The notes beneath the pieces are model-generated. The model ran no database searches and was not told where the DNA came from. It saw only the letters and a list, made by a program, of their open reading frames with translations. Shown piece after piece: positions 5,966 through 56,378 of a stretch of 64,000 nt of DNA (within the stretch, counting starts at the first letter, position 1; each line of letters opens with the position of its first letter). The translations under genes and the position numbers were made by a program. This stretch comes from Bacillota bacterium. Lineage in GTDB: Bacteria; Bacillota; SHA-98; Ch115. The stretch covers positions 1 through 64,000 of the forward strand of contig JABLXA010000017.1 of NCBI GenBank assembly GCA_013178415.1, read 5' to 3'.

Positions 5966-7390
5966 ATGGACCTCTGGAAGAATAATCTCGATGTTTTCCG
6001 CGAGCAGAACCCATGGTGGGTGTCGGGAGCGGTTCCTGTTGACCTGGTCGGGTCCGTCCGCAGGTTGTACTATGACCATATCGCAGAGCACCTCGCCACC
6101 CAGCGGGAAGTCCTCCTTCTCGAGGGTCCCCGCCGTGTCGGTAAAACCACCCTCATCTACCAGGCAATCGCCCATCTTCTGGCGTCCGCAACACCGCCCA
6201 GCCGCATCCTGTATGTGTCCGTAGACGACCCATATCTCAACAGGGGGACTCTTTTCAAGGACATACAAGACTACTTCGAGCACTTCGCGGCGAAGCGGGA
6301 CCTCCGTGGCGCTGAGGGAACATTCTACGTGTTCCTTGACGAGGTGACAGCCCTGGATGACTGGGAGCTTTATGTAAAGCGCTACTATGACCTGAAGTAT
6401 CCACTCCGGTTCGTGTGCACGAGCTCGGCTGCGGCGTTCTTGAAAAAGCGCTCACGCGAGAGTCTGGCCGGACGGATATCCGCGGTCCAGGTCTATCCAT
6501 TCTGCCTGTCTGAGGCCGCCAGTCTGAGGGGAATGGGGTCGAAGCTTGCTGAGGCACATGCATTGATTCGCGAGACCTGGGCGTCGTTTTACAAGCACCT
6601 TGATGTAACGCGACTCCATGCCGGACTGCAAGAGGTGGAGAAGGAGTTTGGGACGCTCCTTTTGGATGAGCTGCCGCTGAGGCTCTACCTCCTTGAGGGT
6701 GGCTTTCCCGAGTATATACTTGCCAAGTCGCCACGCTACAAGGACCATTACTTCCTGGAGAGTGTTGTGGACAGGACGCTCTTTCATGATATCGGGCCGG
6801 TTTTTGGCGCGACGGACTTGCACCTCCTGCAAAGGCTGTTTTTATATGCCAACAACCAGAGCGGCGCCCTCCTGAACGTTTCAGAGGCATCCAGGAACCT
6901 GGGAGCACCGTATTCGACAGTAGCCGGCTACCTTCGCTCCTTAAGCTCGGCTGGGCTGCTGTATCTTCTGTCGAAATTCGCAACCTCTGTGGAGGCTGAA
7001 GCGCGGTCCATCGAGCGCGTATACGCCATTGACCCGGGGCTTTACCTTTCACTCGCGCGCGTCGAGCCGACCGATCTGGACCAGACGGGTGGGTGGGGAC
7101 GCCTCGCAGAGATCTGCGTGTTTGGCGAATTCAAGCGTCATGATCTGCGAGACATTCGTTATTGGAGGGACCGGGAGCGCGAGGTTGACTTCGTCGTGGA
7201 TTGCGCTGGCGCCCTGCTGGCTATTGACGTGAAGTTCAGGGACGATCCCCTCGACCCACGCGGACTTCGCGGTCTCGAACAATTTACCCGCAGGTTCTCG
7301 CCGGCAGTCCGTATCATTGTGAGCAAGGATACGCACCGTCTTTGCGATGACCGGACGCTCGTGGTGCCGCTGCGACTTTTCCTGGGCTAG
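5966..7390 (+). CDS. AAA_14 ATPase with C-terminal DUF4143 domain
   Basis: A 474-aa cytosolic ATPase. Walker A is GPRRVGKTTL (about residue 54), Walker B is FYVFLDEV followed by TALDDWE, and a sensor-like CTSSAAAF follows. The C-terminal DUF4143 part contains EVDFVVDCAGALLAIDVKF, resembling a degenerate PD-(D/E)XK core, and a winged-helix-like stretch (NVSEASRNLGAPYSTVAGYL) lies before it. The family is widespread and variable in archaea and bacteria; its function is not settled (defence, selfish element or nucleic-acid-linked roles are proposed). The frame is open further upstream to 5870, but GGGAGGTG six bases before the ATG at 5966 decides the start. A TTGACA promoter lies upstream. It appears intact, unlike many neighbours. 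Confidence 0.85.
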   Translation: MDLWKNNLDVFREQNPWWVSGAVPVDLVGSVRRLYYDHIAEHLATQREVLLLEGPRRVGKTTLIYQAIAHLLASATPPSRILYVSVDDPYLNRGTLFKDIQDYFEHFAAKRDLRGAEGTFYVFLDEVTALDDWELYVKRYYDLKYPLRFVCTSSAAAFLKKRSRESLAGRISAVQVYPFCLSEAASLRGMGSKLAEAHALIRETWASFYKHLDVTRLHAGLQEVEKEFGTLLLDELPLRLYLLEGGFPEYILAKSPRYKDHYFLESVVDRTLFHDIGPVFGATDLHLLQRLFLYANNQSGALLNVSEASRNLGAPYSTVAGYLRSLSSAGLLYLLSKFATSVEAEARSIERVYAIDPGLYLSLARVEPTDLDQTGGWGRLAEICVFGEFKRHDLRDIRYWRDREREVDFVVDCAGALLAIDVKFRDDPLDPRGLRGLEQFTRRFSPAVRIIVSKDTHRLCDDRTLVVPLRLFLG

Positions 7391-7599
7391 GAGATTGATC
7401 GAGAACTCCCTATGGATTTCGATTGCCTCGGTCAGACTCAGAAATCCGAGATATGGATGCAGATATTGTAAGTAATTCGGCATCCTTAAGGATGGGGGCA
7501 GTAGTTTAGCGGCCCCGAGTGAGATAGCATATGGTCGCCAGGGACAGTCACGCATCCACAGGTATGCGGACAATAGCATATTCCCGGCTCGCTGAAGAT

Positions 7600-7906
7600 A
7601 TTGATAGCTATCAGCATTGTCAACGGCGGATAGTGTTGGCCATCGGCATTGTTCGCTGAAGATGATGCTGGCCACCAGCACTGTCTATGGCGGATAGTGC
7701 CGGCTATTAGCATTATTCTCCGATGACATTGCTGTCCACCAGCATTGTTTCGGGCAGATAGTGCTGTCCACCAGCACAGTCCTCTCGAGACAATGCTAAC
7801 CATCGGCATCATCTTTAACGGACAGTGCTAACTGTCAGCATCGTCTTCGGCGAACAGTGCTAATCGGCAGCATTATTTCCGATAAACAGTTCTAACCATC
7901 AGCACC
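7600..7906. repeat. Hairpin array A: ten 32-bp tandem units
   Basis: Units start at 7600, 7632, 7664, 7696, 7728, 7760, 7792, 7824, 7856 and 7888, an exact 32-base pitch with no indels. Each has an 8-base arm resembling AGTGCTGG, a 3-base loop (often CCA) and an arm resembling CCAGCATT, then a 13-base linker. Arm sequences diverge, yet several keep pairing: AGTGTTGG/TCGGCATT pairs throughout using G-U. The period is not a multiple of three, so it is not a coding repeat. The array runs into the 5'-truncated Rpn gene. Confidence 0.85.
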
Positions 7907-7919
7907 GTTAATCTGTCAC

Positions 7920-8639
7920 ATGGAGTTTCAAAGCTCGGATGATCCAAGGATACTGTCAAGAATGCTGAGGTATGCGATAGAGATCCGTGATGCCCAGGGG
8001 GATTTCCCATATCAGGTTCTCCTTTACCTGGGTGATCGTCCAACCAATATGGAAAGCTGTATTATGTGCAAACGGGGAGATTTTGGAGGGATCGATTACT
8101 CACATAGACTGGTGGATATTGGTTTACTCACACGGGAATCACTCAAGTCAGCGGGGGTACCTGAATTATATGGGCTCTTGCCTCTTGCAGAAAGATCGAC
8201 TCGGATGAAGGAGTCAGAGGGTTTTCTGAAGGATTGTGTAAATGATATTGTTAGCAGCCCTATAAGTGTTGAGGCAAAACAACAGATTCTTGTTCGAGCA
8301 GAGATTTTGGCAGGGTTAACGTTTGATGGGGAGACCATTGAGAGGATTTTCAGGGAGGTGGAGACTATGTTCGACATCGAGCGGTCGGCTGGGTACCAGC
8401 GGATTCTCAAAAAAGGCATCGAGCAGGGCAAGATAGAGGGCAAAATAGAAGGCAAGATAGAAGGCAAGAAGGAGTTGGCGATAGATGTAGCGATGAAACT
8501 GCTCAGGAGGAAATTCAAGCGGATTCCTTCTGGATATCTTGAGAGGATTAAATCTCAGGAATTATCCACTCTTGAGAGGATCACGGAAAACATATTCGAC
8601 ATCGAAAAGCCGGAAGACCTCGATCGGTATCTTTCGTAG
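7920..8639 (+). pseudogene. Rpn-family PD-(D/E)XK nuclease/transposase-like gene, 5'-truncated
   Basis: 239 codons aligning with residue 68 onward of the intact paralogue at 13626-14546 (HMEFQ, SRMLRYAIEI, FPYQVLLYLG, LTRESLKSAGVPE, MFDIERSAGYQ, EDLDRYLS). The first 67 residues, including the catalytic aspartate of the PD-(D/E)XK core, are missing; the codons for HMEFQ follow directly on hairpin array A. There is no ribosome binding site. Near the C-terminus a short tandem repeat (KIEGKIEGKIEG) forms the charged helix typical of these proteins. A terminator follows. Rpn proteins promote RecA-independent DNA transfer in vivo; this copy should be catalytically dead. Confidence 0.85.
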
Positions 8640-8680
8640 AGCTTATCCGAATTCTATAACCTTGGTGAGGGTAGGAGAGT

Positions 8681-8707
8681 GCCCTGGGGTGCTCCAGGGC
8701 GTTTTTT
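8681..8707 (+). terminator. Rho-independent terminator after the Rpn relic
   Basis: Perfect stem GCCCTGG / CCAGGGC with a six-base loop, followed by a run of six T residues (8702-8707). Confidence 0.8.
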
Positions 8708-8763
8708 AGGAATCTGGACTCACAGATACCCAAGACCGCAGCGCCGGGGCCGCAGGCGAGCTA

Positions 8764-8901
8764 CCTTGTACAGCTTGCCTGGTCTAGGCTTCCAGCGAGA
8801 GGCTCACCGAATCCGCATCCTTCGTGCCATGTGACCGGGCCCCCGATAAGAAAGCAAACCTCAAATCAAGGGGAAGACTGCCACACTGTCTTGACACGTA
8901 C
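8764..8901. repeat. Dispersed repeat R1, copy 1
   Basis: 138 bases that recur at 16115-16253 with about ten differences. No open frame is conserved between the copies. The shared end contains TTGACA, but a -10 box does not follow in either copy. Both copies sit near toxin-antitoxin genes. Confidence 0.8.
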
Positions 8902-8937
8902 GTTGTGCGGAACTTGGCTGGAGTGCCTTGGAATATG

Positions 8938-8946
8938 TGGTATAAT
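8938..8946 (+). promoter_or_regulatory. Possible extended -10 promoter before the TumE locus
   Basis: TGG followed by TATAAT at 8941-8946 forms an extended -10 element. No good -35 hexamer lies 16-18 bases upstream. It would start a transcript crossing the IS605-like end and the TumE pair. Confidence 0.35.
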
Positions 8947-9020
8947 AGCAACGGGAGGTTCACCCGGGGAGTGGGGTAAGATAGATCATGGCGCTAAGGT
9001 TAGAATTGATTGTTATAAAT

Positions 9021-9063
9021 CCACGCGGGAAAGCCCGTGGTCTTAGCCGCGGGAGGACGTCAG
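9021..9063 (+). mobile_element. IS200/IS605-type right-end (omegaRNA hairpin) relic
   Basis: A CCCGTGG / CCGCGGG stem with the loop TCTTA, followed by AGGACGTCAG, has the form of the right end of TnpB-carrying IS605-group elements, where the reRNA scaffold ends. A competing stem with the upstream CCACGCGGG is also possible, as is usual there. No TnpB or TnpA gene remains, so this is a scar. Confidence 0.55.
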
Positions 9064-9125
9064 TTTTGTATTTCGAGTCATTTTGTTAGGTTGCCACAAG
9101 GGAGTCAGTGCGGAGGTGGGATACC

Positions 9126-9443
9126 ATGGAGCGTATAGAGCTACGTATACCACATGCTCTGAATATGCTGCCTAATAAAGAAAAGGGCATTTTCTCGAGG
9201 GCGATAGCATCTTCAGCCAAGCTGAGGATGGCAACCCTGGAGAAGAGGCTGAAGGATGCGCAAACCATGTTGCAGAGATTCGAGAATAAGTATGGCAAGT
9301 CTTATCGGGATTTCGAAAGCAGCTTCCCTGACGATGCCGATATGGAGATCCACGAGGATCTTGTGGAATGGGCCTTCTGGGATCGTGTGGCGGAGGATTG
9401 CTCTGCGGCCATAAATGGTTATAGACTTCTGACAGGTCGATGA
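9126..9443 (+). CDS. Probable antitoxin of the TumE-type pair
   Basis: A 105-aa, largely helical protein (AKLRMATLEKRLKDAQTML, then FENKYGKSYRDFE) with an acidic C-terminal half (DDADMEIHEDLVEWAFWD). Proteins of this size and pattern commonly precede DUF6516 (TumE-type) toxin genes and are taken as their antitoxins. The start chosen is ATG 9126, preceded by GGAGGTGGG; a GTG at 9108 is in frame but overlaps the ribosome binding site. It ends 13 bases before the toxin start, so the two form an operon. Confidence 0.65.
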   Translation: MERIELRIPHALNMLPNKEKGIFSRAIASSAKLRMATLEKRLKDAQTMLQRFENKYGKSYRDFESSFPDDADMEIHEDLVEWAFWDRVAEDCSAAINGYRLLTGR

Positions 9444-9456
9444 GGGAGACTGCCAG

Positions 9457-9834
9457 ATGGAATCTATTGAGGATTTGCTTACTGAATTTGGCGATATTGT
9501 ATCGGATATAGATGTTGATTCGATTTCCACTGACAAAGATGACTATAGGCATATTAAAGTCATACTTAGGTTTATTGACGGAAGTAGCCTGAGGATAAGT
9601 GAATTTGCCACCCCCGGTAAAAACCCCATTAGGTATAGCTACTATTGGCTAGATAGCTGCAGTAACCTGATTATTGGCTGGGATAATGCGCCTCACCACA
9701 GGAGTATCTCGACATTCCCGCATCACCAGCATGTTCGTCACTAGAATAATGTGTCACCATCGGAGAAGCGGAACCTCAAGGATGTTTTGTATGAGATCCG
9801 GAGCCGCATAGGGGGAGAGGTCGACGGGTGTTGA
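9457..9834 (+). pseudogene. TumE-type (DUF6516) toxin interrupted by an in-frame TAG
   Basis: The frame shows the DUF6516 pattern: a strand set around VILRFIDGSSLRISEF, then YSYYWLDS, IIGWDNAPHHRSISTFPHH. A TAG stops it at 9742-9744. The same frame continues without shift for another 29 codons (NNVSPSEKRNLKDVLYEI, then RSRIGG) and stops at TGA 9832-9834; this is the expected helical C-terminus of the family. A single change has therefore removed the last quarter of the protein. The upstream antitoxin is intact. Either the toxin is inactivated, or the short form or rare readthrough matters. Confidence 0.75.
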
Positions 9835-9851
9835 CGTAGTGCCTACCAATG

Positions 9852-10865
9852 CTATACCATATAGAGTATGGTGCCCTGCGGAAATGTCTTTTCAATCCGG
9901 GCGTGAAAGAACTCCCGGAGCTCCGCCATTAAATCGTCAGGATAGACATATTTACCATACCCGAATTGTCCGTACTTGAATCTGCGTTCCTTTTCGTCCA
10001 GCGGAACCTCTGTGCCGGGATATGCTTGCTGAATGATTCCCTTTGATCTTGTGGTGAAACGGTGAGTTATGAGTTCAAAAGTAACGGGGGTATCGCCCGG
10101 TATATACTCCTTTACTGTATCCAGCAGTCTTCCGTATTCCTCGCGCCACCCGCGAAACGCAAAGATGGGCCCGATTAGGAACCCGAGGGGGTATCCCGCT
10201 TCTAGTACCTTCTTGGCCGCCTCCAGCCTGAATCGGAGCCGCGGCGCTCCGGTTTCGAATCTCTTGATTACGGATTCACAGTTGATGCTAAACCTGATCT
10301 CGGTTTTTCCTCTGTGGTCGGCGCCTAACAGGCCGTCGATATCGGTATATTTAGTTACAAACCGGAACCTCGCATCATTCAGGAAAGCAAAGAATTTGAC
10401 TGCCTTTTGTATGGAGCCCGTCCAGCTTTCCACAGAGATAGGGTCCGACGTAGCAGCGCCTTCAAATATCGTCGTTTCTGGTCGGCGTTCATCTACATAC
10501 TCCCCGGCCCGATTCAGGATATCGTCGACGTTTACATAGACCTTAATATAGGGCCTTCTTCCAAGATTAGTATTGAGATAGCAGTACTGGCACAATCCAG
10601 GGCACCCGGAGGTCAATGGCAATTGGTAATGGGCAGATGGTTTGCAGGTCTGAAACTCCCGTCCCTGCCAGACTAGTACCACTATTGTCCGTTTGGCCGC
10701 TAAGAAACCCTCTCTGAATGTTTCATGCGAGGATACAGGGATCCTCTTTTCATAGACCAGCGTTCTTATCCCTCCGGCTTCGAACCGCTTCATGAGTTCG
10801 TTTCCCAGAGGATAAGAAAGGGCATTTCTCTGAATTAACGCCAGCTTCGGGATAAAAGGACTCAT
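9852..10865 (-). CDS. splB: Spore photoproduct lyase family radical SAM protein
   Basis: A 337-aa radical SAM enzyme. The cluster motif is CPGLCQYC within TSGCPGLCQYCYLNTNLG, followed by RPYIKVYVNVDDIL, TIFEGAATSDPISVE, VTKYTDIDGLLG and TEIRFSINCE, all typical of SplB. Family members repair the thymine dimer 5-thyminyl-5,6-dihydrothymine in germinating spores, using a cysteine-based hydrogen-atom relay near the C-terminal half. ATG 10865 was chosen; GGTGATAG lies just upstream and a GTG at 10874 is the alternative. It stands alone on the minus strand and its 3' end is duplicated at 5511-5585. Supports a spore-forming host, though SPL-like proteins occur elsewhere. Confidence 0.85.
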   Translation of the reverse strand: MSPFIPKLALIQRNALSYPLGNELMKRFEAGGIRTLVYEKRIPVSSHETFREGFLAAKRTIVVLVWQGREFQTCKPSAHYQLPLTSGCPGLCQYCYLNTNLGRRPYIKVYVNVDDILNRAGEYVDERRPETTIFEGAATSDPISVESWTGSIQKAVKFFAFLNDARFRFVTKYTDIDGLLGADHRGKTEIRFSINCESVIKRFETGAPRLRFRLEAAKKVLEAGYPLGFLIGPIFAFRGWREEYGRLLDTVKEYIPGDTPVTFELITHRFTTRSKGIIQQAYPGTEVPLDEKERRFKYGQFGYGKYVYPDDLMAELREFFHARIEKTFPQGTILYMV

Positions 10866-11281
10866 AACTATCACCCAATATACTATTTTGTCCAGGGCGC
10901 AAAGGAGAAATCGCTTCCCGTATTATATGGTGGAATACTAGACCCTTTGCGCCGCGGAAATCACCACAGGTTGCGAACTTCAACGTCACTGAAGGGATGT
11001 TCAAGACTATGGGAAATTCGCTGCCAAACTGATCAAACGACAAAGGAAAAGATCCTGGGATGGCGAAGATATAAGAAATTCATGAACCTAAAGGTGGAGG
11101 CGGCTATCCTGGACTTCACCAGCGCTGGCCTGTTCATGATGCTCAACTATAAAAATAACGTATCTTCCGGTGGGCAGGCAAACCGGCAGAAGAGAATACT
11201 CAGAATTGGCAAGCCAGAAGGGAGGCAGGCGGCTCTCCTCCCCGTCCTTACCGCCGGGGTCTCCAGTCCGCAGATTCCGTG
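10866..11281. other. Noncoding spacer between splB and the ANT(6)-like gene
   Basis: No convincing gene. Two parts (near 10887-10925 and 11096-11155) recur in the collapsed copy at 5587-5684. An open stretch with a lysine-rich start and the residues NLKVEAAILDFTSAGLFM near 11090-11150 may be a relic but belongs to no family I know. Confidence 0.4.
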
Positions 11282-12157
11282 ATGAAGAGTCAGATCGAAA
11301 TGGCATACAATGAGCTGATCCGGAGATTTATTTCCTGGGCCTGTAGCCGTGAGGATATCCGGACCGTTTTTATCGTTGGATCCCGGGCACGGGTAGATCA
11401 TCCTGCTGACGAATGGTCGGATCTTGACTTAGTTATCGTCACGAGAGATCCAGAATACATTTTGTCCTCATCGGAATGGTTGAAAGAGATAGGCGAATCA
11501 TGGATATCCTTCATCGAAGGCACTGCTGTGGGAGAAGGTAATGAGCGTCGCGTCCTATTTGAACATGGATTAGATGTAGACTTTGCTGTGATTCCAGACC
11601 AGCGGTTTAGAAAACTGGCTTCTAGTCCCGAGGTTGGAGATATATTTCAGCGTGGAATTCATGTGCTGCTGGATAAAGATAACCTCACGGTCGATTCGCC
11701 TTCTTCATCCGGAAAGGCTCCGGACATACCTTCATCTTTTCCACCGTCAGAAAGGGACTTCGTTAATCTCATAAACGACTTTTGGTACCACGCGGTGTGG
11801 ACTGCGAAGAAGTTGTTGCGAGGGGAATTGTGGACGGCGGTATTCTGCCTGAATTGTTATATGCATAGTAAAGTGTTGCGTGTCTTGGAATGCCATGCAA
11901 GAGCCGTAAACGGTGCCGGCTATGATACCTGGCACAGGGGGCGTTTTCTTGAGGAGTGGGCGGATAGGCGCGCTCTGGAGGGATTACGGAGTTCTTTTGC
12001 CTATTATGATGAAGATGATGCCTGGCGTGCATTGATATCTATTATGGATCTATTCCGGTGGCTGGCTGTTGAGACCGCTGGAAGACTGGGTTTCCACTAC
12101 CCGGTGTTTGAAGATGAGCGGGCGACGGAGTGGGTAAAAAGTCATTTGTTTCCCTGA
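11282..12157 (+). CDS. ANT(6)/AadS-like nucleotidyltransferase
   Basis: 291 aa. The nucleotidyltransferase core is VFIVGSRARVDHPADEWSD plus LDLVIV near residue 30-55 (GS...DxD) with a third acidic residue in LDVDFAVIPD. The C-terminal half has the helical ANT(6) pattern (NDFWYHAVWTAKKLLRGELW). Family members adenylylate position 6 of streptomycin; distant chromosomal members may have other substrates, so resistance is not claimed. ATG 11282 follows a GTG codon; no strong ribosome binding site. Fragments of this gene are present in the collapsed copy at 5686-5796, and a second, truncated member lies at 27434. Confidence 0.75.
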   Translation: MKSQIEMAYNELIRRFISWACSREDIRTVFIVGSRARVDHPADEWSDLDLVIVTRDPEYILSSSEWLKEIGESWISFIEGTAVGEGNERRVLFEHGLDVDFAVIPDQRFRKLASSPEVGDIFQRGIHVLLDKDNLTVDSPSSSGKAPDIPSSFPPSERDFVNLINDFWYHAVWTAKKLLRGELWTAVFCLNCYMHSKVLRVLECHARAVNGAGYDTWHRGRFLEEWADRRALEGLRSSFAYYDEDDAWRALISIMDLFRWLAVETAGRLGFHYPVFEDERATEWVKSHLFP

Positions 12158-12227
12158 TAGTTATCGATTCCGGGCCCCGATGGCATCGCTGACACCGGAG
12201 AGAGTGGAAACTGGGTAAATGAGATTA

Positions 12228-12245
12228 CCCCGGCCGGAGCCGGGG
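12228..12245 (+). terminator. Possible terminator hairpin after the ANT(6)-like gene
   Basis: Perfect CCCCGGC / GCCGGGG stem with a four-base loop (CGGA), 70 bases past the stop codon. There is no T run, so termination strength is doubtful. Confidence 0.35.
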
Positions 12246-12365
12246 CAATGATAAGGTGAATCTGATTGGCTCGGATACAATCACGCATCCTCAAGGACGC
12301 GGACGCTGGCATACCTTATATGGTTCATGGCAGGGGAGCGACCATGCCTTCATTCTCCGGCGGAC

Positions 12366-12710
12366 AGTGTTAGCTACTAACACTATTCCCGACTCCCGGC
12401 GGATAATGCTGGCCACTAGCATTGTCTGCGGTGGATAGTGCTGACCGCCAGCGCTGTTCCCTGGGGATAATGCTGGCCATTAACATCGTCCTCAACGTAC
12501 AGTGCTAACCGCCAGCATCGTCCCCGGCGAACAGTGCTAACCGTTAACCCTATTCCGGATGGACGATGCTAATCATTAGCATTGTCCCCGTCGGACGGTG
12601 CTAAGTATCAGCACCATCATCGCCGCATGGTGCTGGCCACCAGCACTATCCCCGCTGCGTAGTGCTGGCCGCGAGCATTGCCCCGCTGGATAGTGCTGGC
12701 TACTGACACC
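12366..12710. repeat. Hairpin array B: eleven units of the same 32-bp family as array A
   Basis: Arms start at 12366, then at 12405, 12437, 12469, 12501, 12533, 12565, 12597, 12629, 12661 and 12692; the pitch is exactly 32 bases over most steps. Stems with fully or almost fully complementary arms differ in sequence: AGTGTTAG/CTAACACT, AATGCTGG/CTAGCATT, GATGCTAA/TTAGCATT, GGTGCTAA/TCAGCACC, GGTGCTGG/CCAGCACT. Loops are CTA, CCA, TCA or GTA. Some units carry mismatches. No spacers of unique sequence exist, so it is not CRISPR. Confidence 0.85.
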
Positions 12711-12889
12711 GTTCCTGGCTGAAAGGCTGTGGATGCACTGGAGCTGATGCCGCCCGTTCTATTCCTCAGTTCGAAAGCGGCCGCCATCTCCAACAAGTCG
12801 AGGGTGGCCACTATCCCCAGCAAGTTTCTCTCGCCGAGGACCTTCAACATAGCCGACAAATGTGGATTTGACGGAGTATATTTAAGGTA

Positions 12890-12990
12890 GGCACCCATGC
12901 CGGTTTAACCAGCATCACCAGGGGGATGAAAACCGTCGCGCATATTTCAGGTTAGTCCCCCATGCCGGTCTAGCTGGCACCATCAGAGGC
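12890..12990. repeat. Two units of a 65-bp repeat family (family C)
   Basis: Each unit begins CATGCCGG, contains a short palindrome (TGCCGG-tttaa-CCAGCA; GCCGG-tctag-CTGGC), then ACCATCAGA or similar and GGATGAAAACCG. Starts are 65 bases apart (12897, 12962). The same family has four units at 50784-51010. Confidence 0.7.
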
Positions 12991-13447: not shown

Positions 13448-13625
13448 GGATAGCCGCGGTAGTTCCCCCATGGCGGTCTCCGGCCGTCGCCATCGAGAGG
13501 ATGAAAATGGCAGCTGCCGGCTATTGTCAAGGTAGGCTTTCCCAGTGGCTATGTTGTAATGCATTTTGGCACTGATGAGTAGTATATTGGCAGTAGTATA
13601 TCCCCCATCCATCTGTGGCGCAACA

Positions 13626-14546
13626 TCAAGACAAGTATTGGTCGAGGTCTTCTAGCTTCTCGATCTCGAATATGTTCTCTGCAATCGTCTCAAGGGTAAA
13701 CACATCCTGAGATTTGATTTTCTCAAGATATTCGGGTGGAAGCTTCTTAAACTTCTTACGAAGCTGCCGCAAAGTGAGTTCAGAAAGAGCTTCCCTCTTG
13801 CCTTTCTCTATACCCTTTTCTATACCCTTCTCTATACCTTTCTCTATACCCTCTTCCAGGATCAATTGATATCCGGCAGATTGTCTGATGTCAAACATAT
13901 CCACTACCTCCCTGAAAATCCTCTCGATAATCACCTTACCAAATGCCAACCCAGCGAAAATCTCCGCCATAACCAGGGTCTTCTGTTTTTCCTCAAGCCC
14001 CATGGGACTGTTTATAATGTCATCCACACATTCCTTCAAAAACTCATCCGGCTTTTCCCTGCGAGTCTTCCTTTCAGCCAAAGGCAAGAGCGCATATACC
14101 TCTGGTATGCCTGCAGATTTAAGAGATTCCCGGGTTAGTGCACCAATATCCACAATCTTATACCGGTAATTTAGCCCGCCGAGATTTCCCCGGTCGCACG
14201 CAATGTTGTCTTTCATATGGGGCGGATAAGACCCAAGGTAGAGTAAAATCTGATACGGGAAGTCCCCGTATGAGTCATAGATTTCAGTCGCATACCGGAG
14301 CATCCTCACCTGCATTTTTGGGTCGTCTGTCGTTTGAAACTCCATATGACAAATGGCAGGCTCATTTCCACTTAAGCCCCTCACGACCAGGTCAGAGGAC
14401 TTCATCTCGATCCGGTTAAACTCCACATTGAGAGGCCGGACATCCTCCAGAGTTATCCCGCCAAAATATTCTATTAATCCTTCCTCGCTGCCTGAGAATA
14501 AATTCTTGATGGTTACATCGTATTTCTGTCCCGTCTGTTCCGGCAA
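13626..14546 (-). CDS. Rpn-family recombination-promoting nuclease/transposase-like protein
   Basis: 306 aa, intact. The PD-(D/E)XK core is seen as D52 in SSDLVVRGL and E69/Q71 in CHMEFQ, followed by QVRMLRYATEIYD and FPYQILLYLG. The C-terminal half is helical with a perfect tandem GIEKGIEKGIEK repeat around residue 232 and a KKFKKLPPEYLEKI segment. Rpn proteins (RpnA-E of E. coli) are DNA endonucleases that stimulate recombination-mediated transfer. TTG start with GGGAGGGG seven bases upstream. Transcribed away from array B, about 900 bases from it. The DNA of the GIEK repeat can change copy number by slippage. A truncated paralogue lies at 7920-8639. Confidence 0.8.
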   Translation of the reverse strand: MPEQTGQKYDVTIKNLFSGSEEGLIEYFGGITLEDVRPLNVEFNRIEMKSSDLVVRGLSGNEPAICHMEFQTTDDPKMQVRMLRYATEIYDSYGDFPYQILLYLGSYPPHMKDNIACDRGNLGGLNYRYKIVDIGALTRESLKSAGIPEVYALLPLAERKTRREKPDEFLKECVDDIINSPMGLEEKQKTLVMAEIFAGLAFGKVIIERIFREVVDMFDIRQSAGYQLILEEGIEKGIEKGIEKGIEKGKREALSELTLRQLRKKFKKLPPEYLEKIKSQDVFTLETIAENIFEIEKLEDLDQYLS

Positions 14547-50199: not shown

Positions 50200-50680
50200 G
50201 GCAAGGTGGCGGAAAATTCGCCACTCTTGGCCAGGAACTGGCGAAATCTCGGCCACCCTTGAGCAAAACCTGCCTAAATTTCAACCACCTCAAGGTGAGA
50301 TCGGCCCAAAATTTGCCAGAATGTTCCCGTCCTGACGGGAAATTCGCCACCCCGGCGAGGAGGCTGACGGATTCTTAGCCACTTTTACGTGGGACCTGCC
50401 TGCAATCTCGTCACCCTCGGTCTAAGCTGACGGATTCCCAGCCACTTTCGTAGGGGATCTGCCTACAGTCTCGTCACCCTCGGTCTAGGCTGACGAATTT
50501 TCAGCTATTTCGGCGCGCAACTCGCCCAAAAACTTGCCACCCTCGGTCCAGGATGACTGAAAATTCGCCATCCTTGGTCCAGGGTGACCGAAAACTCGTC
50601 ACCAGCGATTTGGGCTGACTAAAGACTCGCCACCCACCTTAGAGATCTGGCCGAGAGCTTGTCACCCGCGCTTTTAGGTG
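50200..50680. repeat. Tandem array D, 31-bp basic unit with 63-bp higher order
   Basis: The phrase TGAC(C/T)GAAAA(C/T)TCGCCACC or TGACGGATT...CTCGTCACCC recurs with starts at 50365, 50428, 50491 and 50554 (63 apart), then 50585, 50616 and 50647 (31 apart). Between copies GGTCCAGG or GGTCTAGG precedes TGACC, giving weak GGTC...GACC palindromes. Diverged copies extend left to about 50200. A perfect hairpin TTCCCGTC-ct-GACGGGAA lies at 50324-50341. No coding potential. Confidence 0.7.
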
Positions 50681-56204: not shown

Positions 56205-56299
56205 ACCTCGCATCGAGAGCGGCGGAGGGACTGGCCCAATGAAGCCCGGCAACCGGCAGCCTTGGTGCTCCAGTGGTGCCAAATCCTGCAGGGCGAGGT
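56205..56299 (+). promoter_or_regulatory. SAM-I (S-box) riboswitch
   Basis: The core is unmistakable: ATCGAGAG, GCGGAGGGACTGGCCC, AATGAAGCCCGGCAACC, GGTGCTCC, AGTGGTGCCAAATCC, TGCAGGG. The closing P1 helix is ACCTCGC (56205-56211) with GCGAGGT (56293-56299). S-box elements bind S-adenosylmethionine and switch off methionine uptake or synthesis genes. The controlled gene is metQ at 56643. A perfect hairpin GGCCTCTCC / GGAGAGGCC (56379-56404) lies downstream but has no U run, so the expression platform is unclear. Confidence 0.95.
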
Positions 56300-56378
56300 C
56301 TGGTGGGATCCAGATGAAATCCCGCAGACGTGGAACCTGGGAGATGGGAGGAGGGTGTCAGATGAGCATGCGCATGAC

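Follow-up and report, generated by a model that had tools for sequence, protein, structure and literature searches.

Arrays A and B, two blocks of tandem 32-bp units in a 64,000-nucleotide stretch of Bacillota bacterium DNA (contig JABLXA010000017.1 of assembly GCA_013178415.1, positions 1 to 64,000; hereafter the window), are members of a family of arrays that is dispersed in this genome and also found in relatives. The units of this family are dyad-symmetric and follow each other at a nearly constant pitch, their arms do not covary within arrays, transversions are scarce in their symmetric part, and in related genomes several arrays have ends like those of an insertion sequence (IS). The explanation we favor, with moderate confidence, is that these are dispersed arrays of phased dyad protein sites derived from ISKra4-like miniature inverted-repeat transposable elements (MITEs).

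The body of the family consists of tandem 32-bp units, each made of a dyad-symmetric site of about 24 bp and a spacer that is variable and about 8 bp long. The site reads approximately A-N3-TG-N11-CA-N3-T, with most other positions kept merely as purine or pyrimidine. Under this explanation, the elements would be MITEs of an ISKra4-like IS, or descendants of such non-autonomous derivatives, mobilized in trans by its transposase, and their arrays may grow or shrink through unit duplication. An array could then act as a multi-site landing platform for a putative dimeric DNA-binding protein, encoded by the host or the transposon, and selection on protein binding would keep it in place, the hairpin-forming power of the strands being a by-product of the dyad. 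If the sites are indeed read by a protein, they would represent phased operator arrays linked to an IS, and a testable case in which the class of each base is read instead of its identity.

A dispersed family of 32-bp dyad units

Array loci were searched for using blastn and a two-unit sequence model (55 windows from eight arrays of the window's own genome), followed by a matrix scan of the fetched loci. The model was scored on the best 150 of 782 candidates in the own genome, on 86 candidates per genome in relatives, and on 150 per genome in a class-level survey; the numbers of loci given here are thus minimum values, and absences hold for the scored candidates. Together these searches identify at least 13 array loci in the own genome, where a weak model match is also present at C31:31036-31124 (E = 0.002). 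Seven loci (42 model matches) are found in G003, a genome from the same order and another family, and one fragmentary locus in G002, which belongs to the genus of G003. Among 61 genomes, i.e. the own genome and 60 relatives, five have a model match at E ≤ 0.01 (own, G003, G002, G026, and G032), the last three with a single weak match each. At E = 0.001, the class-level survey returns 2 of 17 genomes (own and G003), and the scored candidates include no match in G001, from the same family as the own genome, or in 13 class genomes of another family.

At 10 of the 13 arrays of the own genome, neighboring open reading frames (ORFs) were read without a gene caller; by this reading, the arrays lie between genes and in no fixed orientation to them. 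Units are 0.64 identical within arrays and 0.58 between arrays (12 arrays). Across families, the own array C3a and the G003 array C13 are 77% identical over 248 nt and have different flanking genes. An ATPase gene common to the own genome and G003 has diverged to a similar degree (77% over 1836 nt). The ATPase proteins at L072:1749-3623 and L065:2347-4251 are 78% identical, the G003 copy also matching Mrr_cat, and their genes stand upstream of arrays C5 (about 940 nt) and G003 C13 (about 90 nt), with no other common genes seen at these two loci. A search with an exact pattern of one unit, too strict for many of the known units, gives three isolated matches in genome_contigs, all in unrelated organisms, compared with about four estimated by chance, and none in viral_contigs; likewise, a distant blastn search with array B gives no match in phage and plasmid collections.

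The consensus of 68 units from nine own-genome arrays is GCGGATAGTGCTAACCATTAGCACTGTCCCCG. Its dyad has 12 paired positions per arm (11 Watson-Crick and one T-G) around a 3-base centre, so that of the 8-3-8-13 layout proposed in an earlier note on this DNA, the central three bases stand while the palindrome proves longer than its arms of eight. This dyad goes beyond chance, because 79.8% of the cells hold standard pairs in the proposed register as opposed to 32–48% when the partner is slid by 1–3 columns. The unit counts of A and B, their common design, and their pitch agree with that note, nine of nine steps being 32 bp in A and eight of ten in B. Over 21 loci (121 units in a rescan), 96 of 100 steps are exactly 32 bp, the others being 31, 31, 38, and 39 bp, and a hand-made list of units gives the same step counts. 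By eye, the diverged units are contiguous apart from short spacers, where a CRISPR would have identical repeats and unique spacers. As 32 bp is close to three helical turns, successive sites would lie on the same face of the DNA.

Pairing between the arms

The four hairpins quoted in the earlier note are all present in the window sequence, and their paired arm changes had been taken there to indicate selection on pairing, perhaps in a structured RNA. We find that the compensatory changes are not a sign of such selection. The tests draw on a 117-unit set, to which C8, r_C42, and the G002 fragment do not contribute; C4a and C39, with two units each, drop from the covariation, constraint, and self-versus-other tests, leaving 113 units in 16 arrays. 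When right arms are shuffled within arrays, the number of Watson-Crick cells is as expected both for the 68 units of nine arrays (515 vs 514.3, z = 0.08) and for the full 113 (851 vs 844.5, z = 0.56). The procedure has power, as simulated compensation of 10% of the wobble cells yields a mean z of 3.3, with 2.05 the lowest of ten runs. G-U cells show no preference beyond column make-up (z = −0.48), and A-C cells are mildly low (z = −1.64 overall). Furthermore, units are no more complementary to themselves (0.568) than to other units of their array (0.571; difference −0.003, standard error 0.009). Compensatory pairing within units is rejected on the within-array shuffles together with this last comparison. 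Pairing between mirrored units across an array reaches significance in r_C13 alone (P = 0.002) among 12 arrays tested.

A structured RNA, or a transcribed hairpin array kept by base pairing, is accordingly very improbable to us and in large part refuted, even if some measures point its way. Specifically, the strands fold better than shuffled ones (z = −11.9 for A and −10.2 for B as RNA, −7.2 for B as DNA), A-C cells fall below expectation in the G003 arrays (z = −2.72), and a weak pairing excess appears when arrays are pooled for shuffling (z = 2.05). In pooled, overlapping two-unit windows, two of five pairing measures are reached in 9 and 8 of 500 shuffles. This pooled excess disappears once shuffling stays within arrays, where compensation at the 10% level would have been detected. 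The loop of the unit is also as constrained as its stem, and every Rfam family stays below its gathering score at the arrays, the strongest of the weak matches having 25.4 bits vs 60 (E = 0.054).

The observed pairing is what independent drift of the two arms yields. Most core columns are nearly all-purine or all-pyrimidine, so independent transitions automatically give Watson-Crick, G-U, or A-C cells, and base-class conservation with free transitions produces wobble and matched pairs in the observed proportions. A hairpin array with seemingly compensatory changes can thus arise without detectable selection on pairing. The findings that the earlier note had named as counting against its idea include a lack of covariation and a lack of further arrays in the genome; the first is what we observe, while the second is contradicted by the other arrays.

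Conservation of the purine/pyrimidine pattern

Across the 16 arrays with at least three units, positions 2–28 of the unit change by transition at a rate of 0.265 and by transversion at 0.067, a ratio of 3.94 (95% interval over arrays 3.17–5.07, which corrects in part for the non-independence of within-array pairs). In the same arrays, the five spacer positions have rates of 0.253 and 0.258, a ratio of 0.98. Transversions are scarce over the 24 bp from index 4 to 27, except at 9, 11, 12, and 15. Indices 4, 8, 22, and 26 are near-invariant, with rates near zero, while 21 is less strict and 9 tolerates transversions; these places are related by the dyad, approximately as A-N3-T(G)-N11-CA-N3-T. 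Loop and stem behave alike, with transition-to-transversion ratios of 5.8 and 5.4 in the five main arrays of the own genome, 3.1 and 2.2 in three arrays of the TTTAAAC type, and 7.6 and 5.6 in four arrays from G003. Fourfold sites in alignments of G002 with G003, which serve as a neutral yardstick, have a ratio of about 1.4, with 156 transitions to 110 transversions in five ORFs taken as genes and 177 to 134 over twelve alignment rows.

These patterns suggest that the conserved part of the unit is a double-stranded dyad DNA site, present once per three helical turns. The phased protein-binding array considered in the earlier note fits the pitch, the dyad-related near-invariant bases, and the scarcity of transversions, and remains a live reading. 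A related possibility, which we find conceivable and rather doubtful, is a nucleoprotein array copied by an IS and read mainly through its purine/pyrimidine pattern, i.e. DNA shape, such that transitions are nearly free, transversions are purged, and the 32-bp phasing persists. A transition-transparent binding code of this kind, dispersed by an IS, would add a new type to the constraints acting on bacterial repeats.

It is unlikely, in our judgment, that the arrays are instead a neutral satellite on old MITEs, amplified by slippage and decaying without function, with the shortage of transversions reflecting mutational bias. A bias of this kind is hard to reconcile with spacer and core positions that are equal in transitions and fourfold apart in transversions within the same arrays, or with the ratio at fourfold sites. 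The retention of 32 bp in nearly all steps despite a unit difference of about 36%, and the dyad relation of the near-invariant positions, also speak against it. On the other hand, drift without function would account for own arrays lacking full IS-type ends, the absence of a fixed orientation to adjacent ORFs, units almost as dissimilar inside one array as they are from array to array, and a presence as patchy as 2 of 17 class genomes.

Insertion-sequence-like ends in related genomes

Several arrays of G003 and G002 have flanks that resemble each other and form inverted repeats, and the ends of these array elements resemble those of L103, an insertion sequence of 1.7 kb in G003 (CTTAGCACGCATAAGGTCTGGGAT and ATCCCAAGGGTTATGCGTGCTAAG). 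The L103 insertion sequence has the 8-bp target duplication AAAGATTT (8 of 8, by eye) and encodes a 484-aa transposase that matches UPF0236 (PF06782) at 46 bits, above the cut-off. Its match to the ISKra4 model NF033572 (E = 5e-32, 111 bits) is below the cut-off of 205, and for this reason we call it ISKra4-like only. At least one such end is present at 6 of the 8 array loci in these two genomes: both ends at G003 C6, G003 C11, and the G002 copy, the left end at G003 C1, and the right end at G003 C10 and C42. The G002 element has the target duplication ACTTGTT(C/T) (7 of 8, by eye).

The G003 C10 array is found between remnants of a related transposase (residues 31–141 and short C-terminal matches, E = 0.035 and 0.8) and a right IS end, and seems to sit inside a decayed IS. 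When the G002 and G003 copies were searched reciprocally with their flanks (with the best 40 of 56 candidates scored in one search), the listed matches comprised the element and some other short repeats, and showed no flank homology between the copies apart from those short repeats. Overall, the arrays of these genomes look like BOX-type modular MITEs. A derivation of the units from the IS tips, with which they have TTAGCAC in common, was considered and rejected, as the tip-aligned score is matched by 5% of background windows.

At L106 (own C12 contig end) and L105 (own C26 start), ISKra4-like IS ends adjoin CRISPR-like repeats (GTTGCAGTCCTTGACCCGATG...), as if the IS sat in a CRISPR array. 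A short repeat at L075:2908-3006, unrelated to the arrays, has more than 20 matches in G003.

Ends and flanks of the own arrays

The order of the units in B follows that of A, with B unit 1 onward corresponding to A from its unit 4 (P = 0.003 against unit-order shuffles, uncorrected and the lowest among 66 array pairs), so B is probably colinear with A. Four pairs reach P ≤ 0.02, i.e. A-B, A-C3b, A-r_C2, and C43-r_C13, and C3a with G003 C13 does not. Colinearity and a common 37-nt flank block (78% identity; Table 1) together suggest that A and B are copies of a single longer element. The block is a possible left end of this element and contains, 45 nt before array A and 78 nt before array B, the sequence CACGCAT, which forms the core of the ends of the ISKra4-like IS; by background frequency, C(A/G)CGCAT would turn up 0.02 times in a 200-nt flank on one strand. 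A candidate right end of B, noticed by eye, is given no support by a flank-against-flank test (P = 0.885). Inverted repeats around the own arrays are not significant, the lowest P value being 0.075 (C4b). At C3b, the same two genes are separated by 522 nt here and by 167 nt in G001. What ties the own arrays to an IS is therefore their relationship to the arrays of G003, together with the block at A and B, and this link is less sure than in G003.

Several results weigh against phased protein sites of MITE origin. No binding protein is known for the arrays. A recognizable full IS-type end is present at none of the 13 own arrays, only A and B among them have the CACGCAT core, on one side each, and the transposase match found there at E = 1e-10 is one 74-residue piece at a contig end. 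The 355-nt difference at C3b exceeds the length of the array and shows no clean junction, nor does the L070 locus in G002 yield a clean empty site. Even in the relatives, both IS-like ends are found at only 3 of 8 loci, G003 C2 bears a different pair of ends (GGGGCGCATAA, P = 0.005), the flanks of G003 C13 have no IS-like end, target duplications are poor at G003 C11 (5 of 8) and G003 C6 (3 of 8, both by eye), and the likeness of half-sites to IS tips is not significant. The TTTAAAC-type arrays are less short of transversions (2.16 in the stem), five whole G002/G003 alignments have 540 transitions to 278 transversions (1.9), and pairs within arrays are not independent.

The lack of full IS ends at the own arrays would be expected if these were host sites for organizing or partitioning the chromosome (centromere- or nucleoid-like), with IS ends gained later in G003. 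Phased sites at several intergenic places, and similar arrays across families such as C3a and G003 C13, are in keeping with this. We nevertheless deem it improbable, since the scored candidates give no match in G001, which shares the family of the own genome, or in 13 class genomes of another family, the C3b locus is shorter in G001 by the length given above, and in the sister lineage 6 of 8 loci are linked to one type of IS.

Near arrays C3a and C43, two proteins that are 82% alike (L016:4220-4960 and L018:5284-6147) start about 220–260 nt from the array. With an apparent winged-helix N-terminus and a nuclease-like C-terminus, they were considered as array binders. They have no Pfam match and no match among the ORFs of the fetched G003 and G002 loci, and part of them weakly resembles phage and plasmid proteins. 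Upstream of position 4701 in L018, beside array C43, lies a minisatellite (GGTATCCAAGGTATCC).

Surroundings of arrays A and B in the window

Table 1. Arrays A and B and associated features, in window coordinates.
Feature	Position	Strand	Description
Array A	7594-7913	.	Ten 32-bp quasi-palindromic units; nine of nine steps of 32 bp
Array B	12360-12717	.	Eleven units; steps of 39, eight times 32, and 31 bp
37-nt block left of A	7544-7580	+	Common with flank of B; contains CACGCAT
37-nt block upstream of B	12277-12313	+	Counterpart of 7544-7580
Tentative right end of element B	12725-12741	-	Likeness by eye to left block of A
Rpn-family gene remnant	7899-8639	+	Residues 61-306 of full-length paralogue at 13626-14546

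The match of the Rpn-family remnant overlaps the last unit of array A by 15 nt; its alignment (7899-8636) is 61% identical to the paralogue, and residues 1–60 are not found within 7000-9000. Between the arrays are two small adjacent ORFs (9108-9744), the second matching the TumE toxin family (PF20126, E = 1.4e-18), a spore photoproduct lyase (9852-10874; PF20903, E = 5e-113), and a nucleotidyltransferase of the streptomycin adenylyltransferase family (11279-12157; PF04439, E = 4e-45). A motif of the type CCCCATGCCGGTYT is repeated directly downstream of array B (12881-12989 and 13464-13479). Elsewhere, the window contains an unrelated tandem repeat with 63- and 31-bp periods (50363-50660; CTCGCCACCCTCGGTC...), which the flank of array C17c (L020) resembles by eye, this flank also matching that of C4b (L073), and a SAM riboswitch (56207-56314; RF00162).

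Comparison with known systems

The earlier note knew of no described family with such a layout, and this needs amending, as pneumococcal BOX elements and the repetitive extragenic palindromes (REP) with their bacterial interspersed mosaic elements (BIME) have layouts close in kind. BOX elements (boxA-boxB(n)-boxC), which occur in Streptococcus pneumoniae and S. suis, are composite interspersed repeats with IS-like inverted ends and variable tandem internal modules, and in S. suis identical internal boxB modules lie between differing end modules (PMC3049150). The arrays described here similarly combine IS-like ends with tandem modules, and likewise occur with different or no recognizable ends. 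By contrast, their internal unit is itself a dyad, the 32-bp pitch is rigid, and the partner IS is ISKra4-like. The likeness to BOX is one of layout, known from descriptions and not from sequence comparison.

Plasmid partition sites, iterons, and phased operator arrays carry several dyad or direct sites spaced by near-integral helical turns. The arrays differ from partition sites and iterons in occupying at least 13 chromosomal loci, and no partition or initiator gene was recognized among the array neighbors looked at.

With REP/BIME clusters, some of which bind gyrase, IHF, and Pol I according to one account (PMC2817692), the arrays have clustered imperfect palindromes in common. That account also describes BIME clusters that capture the ends of transposase genes (PMC2817692), and both points would suit elements moved as single-stranded hairpins by a REP-associated tyrosine transposase (RAYT, of the HUH type). 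We disfavor this origin as scarcely probable at all, because the unit consensus has no GTAG-type head (as such heads are given in PMC2817692), the linked transposase is ISKra4-like, and the ends are inverted repeats, accompanied in some copies by a target duplication. Moreover, the units here run head-to-tail at a fixed pitch and do not alternate.

Judging mostly by titles and the beginnings of abstracts, we found no open-access description of a 32-bp palindromic unit with ISKra4-like ends, and passages of a MITE review (PMC10969869) and an IS survey (PMC9208149) hold nothing closer to the arrays. Subirana and Messeguer (2019; PMC6749651) describe prokaryotic satellites, among them non-coding tandem families transposed through a genome, for which they name Leptospira interrogans and Methanocella conradii as rare cases. 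The arrays resemble these in being a non-coding tandem repeat family spread through a genome, and differ in their palindromic unit, their IS-linked ends, and their purine/pyrimidine constraint.

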